From positions 682,001 through 746,000 of the forward strand of contig JAWAID010000001.1 of the NCBI GenBank assembly GCA_038888615.1: DNA of 64,000 nucleotides, written 5' to 3'. The notes beneath the pieces were generated by a model that ran no database searches, was not told the DNA's origin, and saw only the letters and a list, made by a program, of their open reading frames with translations. The position numbers and the translations under genes are program-made. The stretch comes from Candidatus Korarchaeum sp. (GTDB taxonomy: Archaea; Korarchaeota; Korarchaeia; Korarchaeales; Korarchaeaceae). Below are positions 6,751-55,690 of the stretch, piece after piece (positions within the stretch are counted from its first letter, which is position 1; each line of letters opens with the position of its first letter).

Positions 6751-7685
6751 GCTTCCACTACATCACCGTACTTGGGTGAGGATCCGGGGAGCTTATAATA
6801 TGGCTCCCTAACCCTAAGGAACTGCTTGAACCTCTCAAGGATCTCCTCATCACTCCCCCCGCTCCTCATCAGGGTGAGGAAGTCCACTAGGTTGTCCTCC
6901 CTATGTATGCAAGGTTTGAAGAAGCCGTCGTGCGTCACCCTGGCTCGCGTGCACCTCATGCAGAAGAGGGGGTCCCCGCCCCCCCTGACGAGCTCCACAA
7001 TAGTGCCGTCCTCCAGATGGAATAGGGGTCTGTTGTGAAGCTCCCTGAAATCCCTCCTCACGGATACCCTCTCCAGCTCCCTCTCGAACTCCTCAAGGGG
7101 GTAGTGGTAGTCCGCTAGCGAGGGGTTGCGTTCCAGAATCTCTATGAACTGGACCCTCAGACCCCTCCTCCTGGCGAACTCCACCACGTCCCACAGTTCC
7201 CCCTCATTTATCCCCCTGATCACGGTGAAGTTAACCTTCACTGGGGCGATTCCCCACCTCAAAGCCTCATCTATGCCCTCTATTGCCCTCTCCAATCCAT
7301 CAACTCCCGTTATCCTGGTGTAAACATCTCTCCTAAGGGAATGGATGCTCACGTTCACTCTGTCGAGCCCAGCTTCCCTCAAAGATTTAGCTCTCTCCCT
7401 TAAGAAGAAACCGTTCGTCACGAGGCTCACCTCATCCACGCCGGAGGATCTGATCTCCCTTATCACGTCCTCCAGGTCCTCCCTCATCAGGGGCTCCCCT
7501 CCGGTTAGCTTTACCCTCCTTATGCCGTGCTTGGAGAGGACCCTCAAGAGCCTCCCGAACTCCTCAGGTCTCATCTCATCACCTCCGGAGCAGTGTCCCT
7601 CCCTGTGACAGAAGAAACAGCTGTAATTACACGATTTAGTCACGGATATCCTCAGCTCAGTGACGGGTCTGCCCCACCTATCCAT
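6747..7685 (-). CDS. moaA: GTP 3',8-cyclase (molybdenum cofactor biosynthesis MoaA)
   Basis: This radical SAM enzyme starts molybdopterin synthesis by rearranging GTP to 3',8-cyclo-7,8-dihydro-GTP. The first 4Fe-4S site is CNYSCFFC, followed by KLTGGEPLMREDLEDVI (SAM binding) and LVTNGFFL. The C-terminal second cluster is FCMRCTRARVTHDGFFKPC. It is 312 aa, normal for archaea. The usual C-terminal Gly-Gly is not present; the protein ends in DVVEA. The ATG at 7685 is preferred over the TTG at 7691 and overlaps the moaC stop, so the two genes are translationally coupled. Confidence 0.93.
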   Translation of the reverse strand: MDRWGRPVTELRISVTKSCNYSCFFCHREGHCSGGDEMRPEEFGRLLRVLSKHGIRRVKLTGGEPLMREDLEDVIREIRSSGVDEVSLVTNGFFLRERAKSLREAGLDRVNVSIHSLRRDVYTRITGVDGLERAIEGIDEALRWGIAPVKVNFTVIRGINEGELWDVVEFARRRGLRVQFIEILERNPSLADYHYPLEEFERELERVSVRRDFRELHNRPLFHLEDGTIVELVRGGGDPLFCMRCTRARVTHDGFFKPCIHREDNLVDFLTLMRSGGSDEEILERFKQFLRVREPYYKLPGSSPKYGDVVEA

Positions 7686-24275: not shown

Positions 24276-25151
24276 CTACTTCAGTAGCTTCCTCATCCAC
24301 TTGACCCTCTTCATAGGTTCAAAGCCAGCCGCTTCGAAAGCGGCCCTGTACTTACACCAAGTCTGCGTCCTCAAACGCGTAACCCCCATCTCGTAAGCTA
24401 CTGTTAGGGCCATCTCAGCGGAGTCGAATATCTGACCCAACCCGGATTTCTCAGGACCCCATATCAGAACGTAGAGGTAGTTATCCTCGAAAACAGGCTT
24501 GAAGAGACCCATGATGAACTCCCAAAGACCTACCCTAACTTTGAGCACCTTGGGGGGCGGTAAGCCGACCTCCTCCCTCCCCCAGAGGAGCTCCCAGAGG
24601 AGGGCCGATGGCCTAGTCTGACCCGCTATCATCTGCGCTGCCACCGGAAACTCCTTCCTCCCCAACTCCTCGACCTTAGGTTGCTCAGGAGCGGGCCTAG
24701 GTTGAGCCTCCATCAAGACCTGAGATTCTATCTCAGAGAAGCCCAGGGTTTCGAAGAAAGCGATTGCCTCGTCGTTCGGTATGGTATCGAGGGCATTGAA
24801 GCCCATCTCCCTGGCTATCTCGCAGCACTCATCCACGAGCTTCCTACCCACTCCAGCCCTCCTCTCCTCCTCCCTCACCCAGACCATCTGGAGGTAAGCG
24901 TGTTCCCCCACCGGGGACCTGAACCTCTCGGGGACCACCTCAGCCTCCCCCACCACTTCCTCATCCTTGAGAGCGACCACTATCCTCCCGCCGACGGAAA
25001 GCAAGTTCTCCACGTACCAGCTGAGGACCCTGGGATCTCCCCAGTAACCGCAATCCCTCAACCTCATGCTTAGAGACATCGTCCTCCACTTAGGGCAGTG
25101 TATTCGGACTATGTCCTCCAAGAAGCTCGGATTGAACTTAGCTATCCTCAA
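24276..25151 (-). CDS. two-domain GNAT acetyltransferase
   Basis: The N-terminal GNAT domain (residues ~1-150) is complete: LQMVWVREEERRAGVGRKLVDECCEIARE is motif A (R-x-x-G-x-G/A), followed by IPNDEAIAFFETLGF. The C-terminal half (~155-291) looks like a degenerate second GNAT copy, ending YRAAFEAAGFEPMKRVKWMRK. Substrate unknown. The start is TTG at 25151, overlapping the Sir2 stop as TTGA after a GGGGGGAACT binding site. As last gene of the operon with Sir2 and a radical SAM enzyme, it could acetylate a protein or small molecule that Sir2 deacetylates, which is inference. Confidence 0.8.
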   Translation of the reverse strand: MRIAKFNPSFLEDIVRIHCPKWRTMSLSMRLRDCGYWGDPRVLSWYVENLLSVGGRIVVALKDEEVVGEAEVVPERFRSPVGEHAYLQMVWVREEERRAGVGRKLVDECCEIAREMGFNALDTIPNDEAIAFFETLGFSEIESQVLMEAQPRPAPEQPKVEELGRKEFPVAAQMIAGQTRPSALLWELLWGREEVGLPPPKVLKVRVGLWEFIMGLFKPVFEDNYLYVLIWGPEKSGLGQIFDSAEMALTVAYEMGVTRLRTQTWCKYRAAFEAAGFEPMKRVKWMRKLLK

Positions 25152-25894
25152 GAAGTTCCCCCCAAATACCTATCTATACTCAGGAGGGCCTCACTAGCCC
25201 CCCTCCTCATCCTGAAGCGCGCGAACCCACTTAAATTGGTTTCCTCTGGGTTTATCTCCACAAGCGTAGCCCCATGCTTCAAGGAGATCAGCGGTAGGGA
25301 GGCAGCAGGCATGACGAGACCGCTAGTTCCTATTACTAACACGACCCTGGCTTCCCTCATCATACCCTCAGCCCTGGACCAGGCATCCAGAGGGAGAGGC
25401 TCGTGGAACCAGACTACGTCGGGCCTCATCAGGGAGTTACAGCTGCAGATCGGAGGGACCTTATCCGGAATATTACCGAAGCCTAGGTCAATCTTGAGGC
25501 CGCATGATGTGCATCTGATCCTCCAGATCGATCCATGGAGCTCTACCACGTTAACGGATCCAGCTTCCTGATGCAAACCATCGACGTTCTGGGTCACGAC
25601 GCCCATCACTATACCCTCCCTCTCCCACCTAGCCAGCACCTCGTGAGCTAAGCTGGGTCGGACCTCCCTGATGAGGGACATCCTCCACCTGTACCAATCC
25701 CAGACGAGCTCAGGGTTCCTTCTGAAGGCCTGCGGTGTAGCTAGCTCCTCGGGATCGTACTTATCCCAAAGACCGCCCTTTCCCCTGAAAGTGGGTACCC
25801 CTACCTCCGCCGATATGCCGGCGCCCGTGAAAGCGACTACCCTCCCTGAGCCCCTCCTCAGGAGCCCCGCTACCTCCTCAGCTTCTGAGTTCAT
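25148..25894 (-). CDS. Sir2-family NAD-dependent protein deacylase
   Basis: This removes acyl groups from lysine using NAD. Motifs in order: AFTGAGISAEVGVPTFRG (NAD), TQNVDGLHQEAGS with ELHGS (catalytic His), zinc Cys CTSCG and CSCN, and VIGTSGLVMPAASLP. It is 248 aa, class U/III size. The ATG at 25894 follows GGAGGTCG and overlaps the end of the radical SAM gene; the longer reading frame to 25945 is not needed. In archaea Sir2 acts on Alba and other proteins. Here its position between a radical SAM enzyme and a GNAT suggests a dedicated role. Confidence 0.93.
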   Translation of the reverse strand: MNSEAEEVAGLLRRGSGRVVAFTGAGISAEVGVPTFRGKGGLWDKYDPEELATPQAFRRNPELVWDWYRWRMSLIREVRPSLAHEVLARWEREGIVMGVVTQNVDGLHQEAGSVNVVELHGSIWRIRCTSCGLKIDLGFGNIPDKVPPICSCNSLMRPDVVWFHEPLPLDAWSRAEGMMREARVVLVIGTSGLVMPAASLPLISLKHGATLVEINPEETNLSGFARFRMRRGASEALLSIDRYLGGTS

Positions 25895-27194
25895 GAGGCT
25901 CGACCTCCGGAGGGTTAGGGGGATAAGGCCTGACCTCGGACTCAAGAGGGCAACCTCCTCTACAGGCTCCTAATGCTGGACAGCTCAAGCAGGCATCACC
26001 TACGTAAGCGGCTTCCCTTATCCTCCTGCATCCCTCAGAGTACCAGATTCTCTCCCAGTCATCCCTCAGTATGTTTCCGAGCCTCAGGTAGTGGCTCTGG
26101 CAAGGTATGACCGATCCATCCGGCTCCACAGCTATCGCTATACTGCAAGCCGAGCAGAACTTCGGGCCCAACCCAAGCTCGATGGGATCGATCTCACAGT
26201 ACCTGGTGACCCCGTACCAAGTGAAATCCAGACCAAGCTGTAAGCAGAGCTCTTTCGCCTCAGAAACGACCCTCCTCATCTCATCGAAGTCCGGCTCTAG
26301 GTCCTCGGCTAGCTTAGCCCTTCCGCTGTAAATCAACCTGTTCAATGAGTAGCCATGGACCCCCAGCCCAGCGACGAACCTCAGGGTGTCCGCTATCCTA
26401 CTCGAGTTCTCCCTCAAGAGTGTTGAGTTCACGCTAACGTAAACCCCGGTCCTCAGAATGTTCCTTATACCTTCAACGGTCCTCTCCCAGCTCCCCCTCA
26501 CTCCCGTGATCCTCTCATGCACCTCAGGGTCACTAGCTTCCAGGGTGATCTGGATGTAGTCTAAACCAGCCCTGGCGAGCCTCTCCGATAGCTCCTCGCT
26601 TAACAGAGTTCCGTTAGTTACTACACCCGATACGATCCCCAGCCTCTGAGCCTCCTCTACCAGCTCCACCAGGTCCTCCCTGAGGGTGGGCTCGCCTCCG
26701 GTGAAGGTCACCTGAGGGACTCCCAGATCCCTGAGGATCCTCAGGACCTCCTTCCACTCATCCGTGGTGAGTTCCCTCACCTCAGCGGGGCTATCGGAGT
26801 AGCAGTGGAGGCATATGTTATTGCAATCGTAGGTCAACGCTAGATCCACCCTAAGGGGAGCGGAGAGGAGTGAAACATCCGGGAACTGATACCTGAATCC
26901 CAAGTCCGTTACGGGATCACCGTAACCCTCTATGAACTTACTTACCTTATCAACTATCTCCTTGAAGTGCTCCCTAATATCCCTCTTCCTCAACCCCCTG
27001 TAGTGTGCCCTCAGTTCCCTCAAAGCGTCTCTCCAGTCACCTCCTGAGAGGAATGCCTTCACCATGAGAGCAGCCGTGTGGTTCAGGTAAGCTAGCCTAC
27101 TGGCATCCACGACTAGCGAGCCCATGCTGTAAGGTTCGATCCTCAGCTGAACCTTATGGCCCTTGTAGTTGAACTGCATGAACCTTTCGCTCAA
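25878..27194 (-). CDS. radical SAM/SPASM enzyme with N-terminal PqqD-like domain
   Basis: This is likely a peptide- or protein-modifying radical SAM enzyme. Residues ~1-95 resemble PqqD/RRE (SLVVDASRLAYLNHTAALMVKAFL and the following helices), a domain that binds precursor peptides. The radical SAM core has CNNICLHC, FTGGEPTLRED and GVVTNGTLL. The SPASM domain has CSAC, GSVIPC, CLSC and CRGGC for extra clusters. It is about 438 aa. The start is TTG at 27194, overlapping the stop of the upstream membrane-protein gene as TTGA, with GGAGGCGGTG as binding site, which itself encodes part of the Cys tail. It is thus coupled to its likely substrate. Confidence 0.88.
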   Translation of the reverse strand: MSERFMQFNYKGHKVQLRIEPYSMGSLVVDASRLAYLNHTAALMVKAFLSGGDWRDALRELRAHYRGLRKRDIREHFKEIVDKVSKFIEGYGDPVTDLGFRYQFPDVSLLSAPLRVDLALTYDCNNICLHCYSDSPAEVRELTTDEWKEVLRILRDLGVPQVTFTGGEPTLREDLVELVEEAQRLGIVSGVVTNGTLLSEELSERLARAGLDYIQITLEASDPEVHERITGVRGSWERTVEGIRNILRTGVYVSVNSTLLRENSSRIADTLRFVAGLGVHGYSLNRLIYSGRAKLAEDLEPDFDEMRRVVSEAKELCLQLGLDFTWYGVTRYCEIDPIELGLGPKFCSACSIAIAVEPDGSVIPCQSHYLRLGNILRDDWERIWYSEGCRRIREAAYVGDACLSCPALGACRGGCPLESEVRPYPPNPPEVEPHELRS

Positions 27195-28795
27195 CGGACA
27201 CCGCCTCCCGCGCAAGCACAGGCGCAGCTAACACAAGCGCAAGCACAGGCGCAGCTAACACAAGCGCAAGCCACTCTGACTCTCCTACTGCTCCCACTAG
27301 GCCTCTCGGGGACTATGGCCTTGGCTACTCTCTCAGAGAAGTCCTCCAGGTTGGTCACGATGGATGAGGAGAACCTCTCGATGGACCTGGCTACGGAGTC
27401 AGCGGCTTTCTCCAAGTCAGTGACCACCGGTACATCGCGGGCTGGCTCCTGGGGAGTAGGGACGTATACGGTCCCCCTCCTCGGGATCCATATCAGGACA
27501 TCCGGAGGCTCTCGCACAATCACGGTAGCGGGGGCTCCCTCCCTCATGTACCTCCTCAGCTTCCCATCGAAGTCCTCATCGGTCAGGAGCCAGGGTAGGT
27601 TCTCCCTGAGGAACTCGAGCCTCCTATCCGGCACCTCCTCCGAGAGCCTTCTCCAGAGCGAGCTGACGAGCTTCTCGTAGTGAGTTAGGGTCTCAAGTCT
27701 CGAGTATCCCGAGAGCTCCTTATTCACTCTCCTGTGGAGGACCCTAATCACGTTGACCAAGCATTCCTCCTTGGGCCTCACTCCCTCTAAGCAACTGAGG
27801 AACTCACTCTCGTAAGCCCTAAGCTGAACGGTGGTCTCGCTCAGCCTCTCCATCTCCAGGGGCTCCAATCTCCTGATGTTGAGAAGACCCTTGTTAGATA
27901 GGACCAGAGCTAATATAGCCAGTATCCTGCCGTAACTGATCCTCCTTCCCTCTAGCTTCTTCAAGTAGGCTACCTCAGGTGGCTCAAGGTTCTTATTGAT
28001 CCCCAAGCTCTCGACAACGACCTCCGGGACCTGATAAGGTCTCTTCTCCATCAGGACCTTAGCGTACCTCACTATGAGGAAGATGGACGCTAGGAGCGCC
28101 CCCAGGAGGATGAGGGCCAACATGACGTACAGCGTATCGTTCTCCTCAGAGCTGACGTAGGCAGAGACGTAATCCTTCGGGAATGAGACACCGACATCCA
28201 GCTTGAAGTTAGGCTGAAGCATTCTCCTCTCCCAGTAGAGAGCGATCCTGTTGTCCTCTAGAACGATCAAGTTATCGTAATCCGGTTGGTTCCTCACCTC
28301 CTCGCTCCTGACGCCGGGTGGAAGGACGACCCACAACCTGAGCCTCCTGACCATCGCATCGAACCAAGATGGTATGAACCTAAGTCCCACGTTCCCGGGG
28401 TTCGTCAGGTCCTCGTATATGAAATCCCTCAGCCTGACCTCCAGGTAGTAGGTTCTGGACTCTCCAGCGTGTATCGGCGTACCAGGGTGCATCCTAACAG
28501 CGTAGTAACTACCCTCAATGACCTTCTCGTAACTGATCCTCCTAGCTTCCCCCTCGTAAATCTCTAAAGCCGTTAAAACATCGAAGTTCCTGGAGGGCAT
28601 ACCGATTGAGACGTAGCTAGTCACCGTACCGGCTGTGATGCGGATGGTTAAGTTGTAGGAGAGGAGGATATCCCCGGATCCCTCTATAACGAGCGTCACG
28701 TCCTCCTCCTCTACCTCGTAGCTTACTTGCGCTGATACGGCAGCTAGGGGTATCAAAAGGAGCAGCATTAGGACAGGAGTGATTACCCTATTCAT
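27191..28795 (-). CDS. DUF2207-like membrane protein with Cys-Ala repeat tail
   Basis: A signal peptide (VLMLLLLIPLAAVSA) and a ~200-residue extracellular beta domain are followed by one strong helix (LYVMLALILLGALLASIFLIV, ~225-250). A cytosolic part follows, with a DUF2207-like PPEVAYLKKLEGRRISYGRILAIL region. The C-terminal 25 residues are unique: two perfect copies of CACVSCACA (510-518, 519-527), then CAGGGVR, nine Cys in 19 residues. The tail should be cytosolic, where the adjacent radical SAM enzyme could modify it or metal could bind. Leaderless ATG at 28795, TATA near 28818-28828. First gene of the four-gene operon. Confidence 0.82.
   Translation of the reverse strand: MNRVITPVLMLLLLIPLAAVSAQVSYEVEEEDVTLVIEGSGDILLSYNLTIRITAGTVTSYVSIGMPSRNFDVLTALEIYEGEARRISYEKVIEGSYYAVRMHPGTPIHAGESRTYYLEVRLRDFIYEDLTNPGNVGLRFIPSWFDAMVRRLRLWVVLPPGVRSEEVRNQPDYDNLIVLEDNRIALYWERRMLQPNFKLDVGVSFPKDYVSAYVSSEENDTLYVMLALILLGALLASIFLIVRYAKVLMEKRPYQVPEVVVESLGINKNLEPPEVAYLKKLEGRRISYGRILAILALVLSNKGLLNIRRLEPLEMERLSETTVQLRAYESEFLSCLEGVRPKEECLVNVIRVLHRRVNKELSGYSRLETLTHYEKLVSSLWRRLSEEVPDRRLEFLRENLPWLLTDEDFDGKLRRYMREGAPATVIVREPPDVLIWIPRRGTVYVPTPQEPARDVPVVTDLEKAADSVARSIERFSSSIVTNLEDFSERVAKAIVPERPSGSSRRVRVACACVSCACACACVSCACACAGGGVR
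27212..27271 (-). repeat. 27-bp tandem duplication encoding the Cys-Ala tail
   Basis: The unit, 27 bp (27212-27238), is repeated exactly at 27239-27265, followed by six bases of a third copy. Each copy encodes the nonapeptide CACVSCACA. Because even synonymous positions are identical, the duplication is recent or kept uniform by recombination. The copy number probably varies between strains. Confidence 0.9.
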
Positions 28796-54575: not shown

Positions 54576-55661
54576 TCACTGGAAGAGCCCTCTGACTGTG
54601 GAGTCATTAGGACATTGAACTACGCCTCTGTAGTAAGGGCAGAAGGAGCAGGACGGCGAGTTCCCCCAGCAGTCGTACTGGTTGCTCTCGGATATCTGAC
54701 ACCCATCCCAAGCCGGGCAGTCGTTGCACGAAGGGTACTGCGAGAGCCTCACGAGCGATCTGAAGGTTACGTATTCCTCAGAGAACCAGATATCCATGAG
54801 AGGCTTTTTTCTCAGGTCACCGAAGCTTACTTGCATAACCTCCACCCTCTTTCCATCTAACCAAGCTACGTAACCGTGGATGGTGAATAGGCAGGGAGAG
54901 ACCTTCCCATCGTAGCTGATCGCGAGCGACTCCCTCTCCACGAAGGGGCACCACCTCTCGGTCTTGTAGCGGAATGAGGGGACCACTAACTTCATGTTGC
55001 TTCCCGTAGCTATGAGCCAGGCTTCTCTAAGTACCTCAGAAACGTGATCGACCTCGAACGCACCGTAGAGCCTCTCCCCATCTACCTCCTCACTCGTAGG
55101 TATTACGTTCGAGAGGAGCAACCCCCTCACGCCCAGTTCGGAGGCCCACCTGACCAAGGAGGGGAGATCGCGGTAAGTGCTCCTCATGAGGACGCTGGAT
55201 AACCATACCCTGGTTCTCCCCGCGATGGCCCTTATTCCCTCCTCCACGGAGATCACATCAGACCCCCTAATCCCGCGGTACCTCTCCGGGATCGCCGATT
55301 CCACGCTGACGAATACGTTGGAGAACGCATCAGCTAAGGGAACGACCCTGTCCCTCAAAAGCGTCCCGTTGGTGACTAGGTTCAGATCGAAGTCCCTGGA
55401 CGCTAGCTTAACTAGACCCTCGAACTCGGGGTGGAGGGTTGGCTCCCCGAAGCCGTCTAACCAGATGCTCCTCACTTCCCCCTTTAGCTCCATCAATAAG
55501 GTCCCGAAGAGGTCTGGGCTCATGAACCCGGTCTCAGGGTACCAGCTCCTCCTGTAACAGAAGCTGCAGCTCAGGTTGCACTCGTTGGTGAGTTCCAAGT
55601 GGACCTCCCTGGGGAGTCGGAGGTCCGGGACGAAGAAACCGCCTCTAACCCTGACCCTCAT
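54576..55661 (-). CDS. radical SAM/SPASM protein, tungsten-cofactor oxidoreductase maturase type
   Basis: Radical SAM core: CNLSCSFCYR, IWLDGFGEPTLHPEF, LVTNGTLL. The C-terminal cluster region is CNDCPAWDGCQ then QYDCWGNSPSCSFC and VVQCP, an arrangement I recall from the family found beside aldehyde:ferredoxin (tungsten) oxidoreductases. It is about 361 aa from the ATG at 55661; GTG at 55664 is equally possible. TATA near 55682-55692. No tungsten oxidoreductase gene is in this window. General radical SAM/SPASM status is certain; the tungsten link is likely. Confidence 0.78.
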   Translation of the reverse strand: MRVRVRGGFFVPDLRLPREVHLELTNECNLSCSFCYRRSWYPETGFMSPDLFGTLLMELKGEVRSIWLDGFGEPTLHPEFEGLVKLASRDFDLNLVTNGTLLRDRVVPLADAFSNVFVSVESAIPERYRGIRGSDVISVEEGIRAIAGRTRVWLSSVLMRSTYRDLPSLVRWASELGVRGLLLSNVIPTSEEVDGERLYGAFEVDHVSEVLREAWLIATGSNMKLVVPSFRYKTERWCPFVERESLAISYDGKVSPCLFTIHGYVAWLDGKRVEVMQVSFGDLRKKPLMDIWFSEEYVTFRSLVRLSQYPSCNDCPAWDGCQISESNQYDCWGNSPSCSFCPYYRGVVQCPNDSTVRGLFQ

Positions 55662-55690
55662 CACGGGACTCCCCTGTCGCTCGCTAAAAA

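Follow-up and report, generated by a model that had tools for sequence, protein, structure and literature searches.

A near-invariant Cys-Ala tail on an archaeal membrane protein as the candidate substrate of a co-inherited radical SAM/SPASM enzyme

RiPP-type radical SAM enzymes have been studied mainly on small bacterial peptides. A small peptide is also the target of the ACGX system (TIGR04340), which resembles the case described here in that its radical SAM/SPASM enzyme is named after a Cys repeat in the target. The sacti- and ranthipeptide maturases SkfB, AlbA, and CteB share with our enzyme the combination of an RRE with radical SAM and SPASM/twitch domains as well as Cys-containing substrates. 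On the substrate side, DUF2207 membrane proteins have a layout similar to that of the membrane protein analyzed here, and their typical tails are Gly/Ser-rich without Cys. By its description, the QhpD/quinohemoprotein amine dehydrogenase system is comparable in that radical SAM thioethers are formed in a protein that stays working (PMC8326336). The nearest described case is that of the TIGR04222 (near_uncomplex) membrane proteins of bacteria, which have Cys-rich tails and are proposed MNIO substrates (Antoine et al. 2025, PMC12452194): Like the proteins of our locus, they combine extracytosolic domains with Cys-containing low-complexity C-terminal tails and an adjoining gene for a RiPP-type enzyme. 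For an archaeal pairing of such a tail with a radical SAM enzyme, we found no description in the open-access papers searched, and a text search of open-licence papers for the letters of the tail returned no paper concerning it.

The pairing is encoded in a window of 64,000 nucleotides, by which we mean the whole stretch of DNA that was analyzed. Its features are the following:

27191–28795, minus strand: tail-bearing membrane protein of 534 amino acids with a putative remote DUF2207/TIGR04222-like scaffold
28178–28723, minus strand: extracytosolic beta domain (residues 25–206) following the signal peptide, as assigned by structure model and Foldseek
28046–28138, minus strand: single transmembrane helix (approximately residues 220–250), positive-inside
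27542–27982, minus strand: cytosolic, mostly helical domain (residues 272–418), as assigned by structure model
27194–27268, minus strand: Cys-Ala tail CACVSCACACACVSCACACAGGGVR, the proposed core for modification
27204–27209, minus strand: GGGAGG, resembling a ribosome-binding site of the radical SAM gene, within the AGGG codons of the tail
25878–27194, minus strand: PqqD(RRE)/radical SAM/SPASM enzyme, with a TTG start that overlaps the TGA of the tail gene
26931–27182, minus strand: RRE (PqqD-like) domain of the enzyme, supported by Pfam in orthologues, AF2 fold, and a TfuB1 RRE match
26241–26858, minus strand: radical SAM core with the motif CxxxCxxC (C131, C135, C138)
25950–26156, minus strand: SPASM domain with the invariant or nearly invariant C354, C372, C409, C412, C418, and C422
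25148–25894, minus strand: Sir2 deacylase (Pfam SIR2) with ATG start, a genus-level neighbor and not core
24276–25151, minus strand: GNAT acetyltransferase (Pfam GNAT), a genus- or family-level neighbor and not core

A first-pass annotation of this DNA had described four overlapping genes with TTGA at two of the three junctions, and this layout holds at the sequence level: All four genes lie on the minus strand, TTGA is found at 27191–27194 and at 25148–25151, and the radical SAM and Sir2 genes overlap by 17 bases. The ribosome-binding site that it had placed in the AGGG codons can likewise be located, as GGGAGG precedes by 9 bases the likely TTG start of the radical SAM gene at 27194–27192 (the mechanical open reading frame starts at 27215). 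No RNA family or tRNA was found at the locus. The window contains two further radical SAM genes (6909–7652 and 54696–55688), which are more distant from the cassette enzyme, and a scan of genome contigs with the single enzyme sequence as query returned two distant radical SAM genes only.

Pfam searches with the window proteins matched Radical_SAM, SPASM, SIR2, and GNAT. The annotation of the second gene as a radical SAM/SPASM enzyme with a PqqD-like domain is confirmed: The radical SAM domain (match at 3e-33, CxxxCxxC motif) and the SPASM domain with its six invariant or near-invariant cysteines are present in 55 of 55 orthologues each, and PqqD is detected by Pfam in 28 of the 55, the window protein alone remaining below threshold. 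In the AF2 model of the enzyme (pLDDT 90), residues 12–95 fold as an RRE, and this N-terminal domain matches the RRE of TfuB1. Among solved structures, SkfB, SuiB, CteB, and PqqE ranked first or near first in profile and fold searches, and the match to TIGR04340 is weak (77.7 bits, far under the cut-off of 400).

The membrane protein consists, in this order, of a signal peptide, a beta ectodomain, a transmembrane helix, a cytosolic helical domain, a disordered linker, and the tail. Its description as a single-pass membrane protein with a cytosolic C-terminus agrees with the signal peptide and the one transmembrane helix with its positive-inside flank; in some families there are apparently three such helices. 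A hydropathy estimate puts the tail in the cytosol, since the number of transmembrane helices after the signal peptide is odd and the flanks are positive-inside in most members. The sequence relationship of the scaffold to DUF2207 and TIGR04222 appears remote: Among 44 scaffold members, three match TIGR04222, two match DUF2207, and one matches DUF2207_C, the window protein matching none of these, and the best DUF2207 score in a relative is 21.6 bits, below the Pfam cut-off of 24.4. For the modeled ectodomain, the best solved matches in Foldseek were the beta domains of ribophorin I (OST1) and of M1 aminopeptidases. A weak profile match (E 0.0014) together with the model points to a possible relationship between the ectodomain and OST1 of the eukaryotic oligosaccharyltransferase. 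One scaffold relative (L051, G025:C183) carries an Ala/Gly-rich tail without Cys, AAATAGAAAAAGGGAGAGAGGGAG, and represents a natural control.

The C-terminus of the membrane protein reads CACVSCACACACVSCACACAGGGVR and contains nine cysteines within 19 residues. Comparison of homologues reveals a near-invariant tail (0–3% amino-acid difference) as opposed to a codon difference of 60%, mostly synonymous, on scaffolds that are 36–57% identical. Among 16 homologues from the phylum of the window, 60% of the comparisons between tail codons show a difference and 95% of these differences are synonymous, whereas the tail amino acids differ by 3.1% and the remaining protein is on average 42% identical; the tail, referred to in the following as type I, is almost unchanged even though protein identity within this phylum drops to 32%. 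In nine proteins from two other phyla, CACACACACACAGGGR shows 0% amino-acid differences on a scaffold that is 36% identical. Since the codons differ by 60% and the amino acids by 0–3%, the tail is not a product of chance, and since the amino acids are fixed while the codons vary, selection acts on the peptide and not on the DNA. The synonymous variation rules out a DNA repeat. It also rules out a by-product of the ribosome-binding site, in conjunction with the retention of AGGGR where no enzyme gene follows, which means that AGGGR does not serve as a ribosome-binding site only.

The first-pass annotation had proposed to look for C-A-C tails next to PqqD-radical SAM genes. We searched 394 archaeal genomes with the tail pattern and conducted follow-up searches, the sampling being archaeal throughout, and obtained linked pairs in three phyla. 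Besides the phylum of the window, the tail occurs in two others, with variants including CACACAGCACACAGGGR and SCACVSCACVSSCACACACAGGGAAGCAPK; the three phyla would be Korarchaeota, Asgard archaea, and Thermoplasmatota, as judged in part from a Rab-like GTPase at one locus (L156). Some pattern matches in other archaea were discarded as out of frame or due to chance. Pattern and profile scans of viral contigs and a search of plasmids yielded no real member of the cassette; one match (L154) lies within a phage-like region without a sensible gene. Within the phylum of the window, a search of 29 genomes (G000–G028) found the membrane protein in 25, and by match coordinates 19 genomes, including that of the window, have the enzyme gene directly adjoining the tail gene; genome G025 has the tail with only a weak and partial enzyme match. 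Relatives thus retain both the tail and the neighboring enzyme, the joint loss of which would have spoken against the annotation. Most other lineages keep the same gene order, with a reversal in family f148. In families f179 and f186 the enzyme gene is unlinked to the tail gene and located elsewhere in the genome beside a methyltransferase gene. In the phylum represented by genome G334, the 12 of 243 sampled genomes that have the enzyme are exactly the 12 that have an in-frame C-terminal tail (Fisher p 1.5e-20, uncorrected for relatedness). In the phylum of G360, 66 genomes have both, four the tail only, eight the enzyme only, and 150 neither, and the four and eight exceptions are mostly incomplete drafts. 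Families such as f57 and f176 have either both tail and enzyme or neither.

A second enzyme clade (approximately 36% identity), which was returned by the enzyme search, adjoins genes for the same scaffold with a different tail: This invariant type II tail is composed of ACHS repeats that end in SGGFR, with a terminal (F/Y)R. In the enzyme tree, type I, type II, and the f148 type fall into separate clades that match the type of tail in every case; the type II enzyme from the family of the window itself (G017, G021) clusters with type II from the phylum of G360. As the scaffold tree agrees with the enzyme tree, both genes move as a cassette. Three arrangements were observed in addition: The tail proteins of f148 (L184:7736-9199) have a TFIIB-type zinc ribbon, a C-terminal extension AAGCAPK beyond the tail, and the reversed gene order; L168 (G697:C1) has a hybrid tail, in a sequence that contains masked letters, of ACHS repeats joined to CACACACAGGGW; and in L169 (G704:C572) one tail gene is followed by two tandem radical SAM genes, both of the type I clade.

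These distributions bear on the question of whether the tail is modified at all. It might instead be an unmodified metal-, Fe-S-binding, or redox array, with the enzyme acting elsewhere in the protein or on a different partner, and the regular spacing of the cysteines, which is two residues in type I and mostly four, with His, in type II, would suit metal binding. Moreover, co-inheritance is compatible with another part of the scaffold as the substrate, and the tree of the scaffold, too, agrees with that of the enzyme. We nevertheless regard this alternative as improbable: The enzyme clade tracks the type of tail, gains and losses of tail and enzyme coincide even where the two are unlinked, and the enzyme has an RRE and resembles peptide maturases. 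Given that nearly every genome with the tail also has a matching radical SAM enzyme of the peptide-modifying kind, comparison of the sequences indicates that the cytosolic tail of this membrane protein very probably undergoes chemical modification in situ.

The remaining two genes of the operon had been interpreted as acylation/deacylation partners of a RiPP-style modification. In a four-gene acyl-chemistry system, GNAT would acylate and Sir2 deacylate the tail or the protein in addition to the radical SAM step, as the start-stop overlaps across all four genes and the conservation of their order in most of the genus could suggest. Sir2 and GNAT, however, occur jointly beside the cassette solely in the genus of the window, with GNAT found once beyond it and a divergently oriented Sir2 gene in one family of another phylum; most cassette lineages have neither, and in others a class I methyltransferase takes their place, which renders such a system highly unlikely. 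Their absence next to the cassette in lineages other than the genus and its close kin rules out Sir2 and GNAT as core components, and this part of the first-pass annotation had to be abandoned: The core is a two-gene cassette, to which they are accessories at best. The class I SAM methyltransferase gene lies beside the enzyme gene outside the phylum of the window (L100:6902-7654, L158, L160, L182), the two genes sharing a strand in one phylum and converging in the other, and its product might add a further modification. In several lineages outside the phylum of the window, the tail gene is preceded by a gene whose small membrane-protein product ends in a zinc-ribbon-like segment (L158, L172, L102, L177). 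The neighborhoods are informative for a further alternative, according to which the membrane protein would serve as an unusually large RiPP precursor, its tail being cleaved off after modification to yield a free small peptide or cofactor, like PQQ from PqqA. Several of the best enzyme relatives (SkfB, PqqE, SuiB) make released products, and a released cofactor would be invariant too. Yet the cassette neighborhoods yielded no conserved gene for a peptidase or an exporter, the scaffold is a large and conserved membrane-bound protein, and the near-invariance of the tail is unlike that of antimicrobial cores, so that we consider release unlikely.

The best explanation, and in our judgment a probable one, is a two-gene archaeal cassette for RiPP-like modification of a tail that stays attached to its protein. 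The core of the first-pass proposal, RiPP-style modification, is thereby strongly supported by comparison (co-occurrence, linkage, correspondence of clade and tail, maturase neighbors). The analysis directly establishes the tail, the enzyme architecture, purifying selection, co-occurrence, the correspondence of enzyme and tail types, and a predicted cytosolic location, whereas we infer that the tail is the substrate, which bond is formed, that the protein retains the tail, and what the tail does. Mechanistically, the RRE domain would dock the membrane protein, the positive-inside transmembrane helix predicting a tail that shares the compartment of the enzyme, and the enzyme would work iteratively on the regularly spaced cysteines. 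The simplest bond, a sactionine-type thioether, would connect the Cys sulfur with the alpha carbon of residues in the tail, for example Ala: Ala is an S-C-alpha partner in Trn-beta of thuricin CD (Cys9-Ala25; PMC8172795), and SkfB tolerates Ala at the acceptor position (PMC8326336). Once modified, the tail would stay on the protein and serve as a rigid structure that might bind metal or be redox-active. Both the S-C-alpha thioethers and the metal or redox role are guesses on our part. The two types of tail may call for different bond patterns, as the cysteines of type II mostly recur every four and not every two residues; this spacing, together with His, would at most render a metal role plausible. 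SPASM enzymes such as SuiB and PqqE perform non-thioether chemistry. More tentatively, and with slightly less than an even chance in our estimation, the cassettes of the three phyla could form an undescribed archaeal class of membrane-anchored proteins in which a dedicated radical SAM enzyme cross-links a genetically fixed Cys-Ala or Ala-Cys-His-Ser array of the cytosolic tail, which the protein then retains as a metal- or redox-active element.

If this is true, the cassette is a widely conserved case from deep archaeal lineages in which RiPP chemistry serves a resident membrane protein. There are two types of tail, each with its own enzyme clade, and the cassette provides a directly testable pair of enzyme and substrate with a scarcely varying tail. 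Among the known systems, the substrates of SkfB, AlbA, and CteB are small peptides with a leader and a removable core; the sactipeptide hallmark of a short precursor with a leader and a cleaved core is absent here, the partner being an integral membrane protein of 534 amino acids. QhpD differs in its acceptors, which are Asp and Glu, and in its substrate, which is a soluble enzyme subunit. The TIGR04222/MNIO systems, in contrast to ours, are mostly from Actinomycetota, have Ser/Gly-rich tails that are predicted to be periplasmic, and lack the enzyme in a third of genomes, whereas the cassette is archaeal and combines a radical SAM enzyme with cytosolic, near-invariant Cys-Ala tails in near-perfect co-occurrence; the genome of the window has no match to PF05114 (MNIO). 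Their scaffold nevertheless appears remotely homologous to that of the cassette, and the parallel would suggest that unrelated enzymes were co-opted to modify the Cys-rich tails of a shared membrane scaffold.
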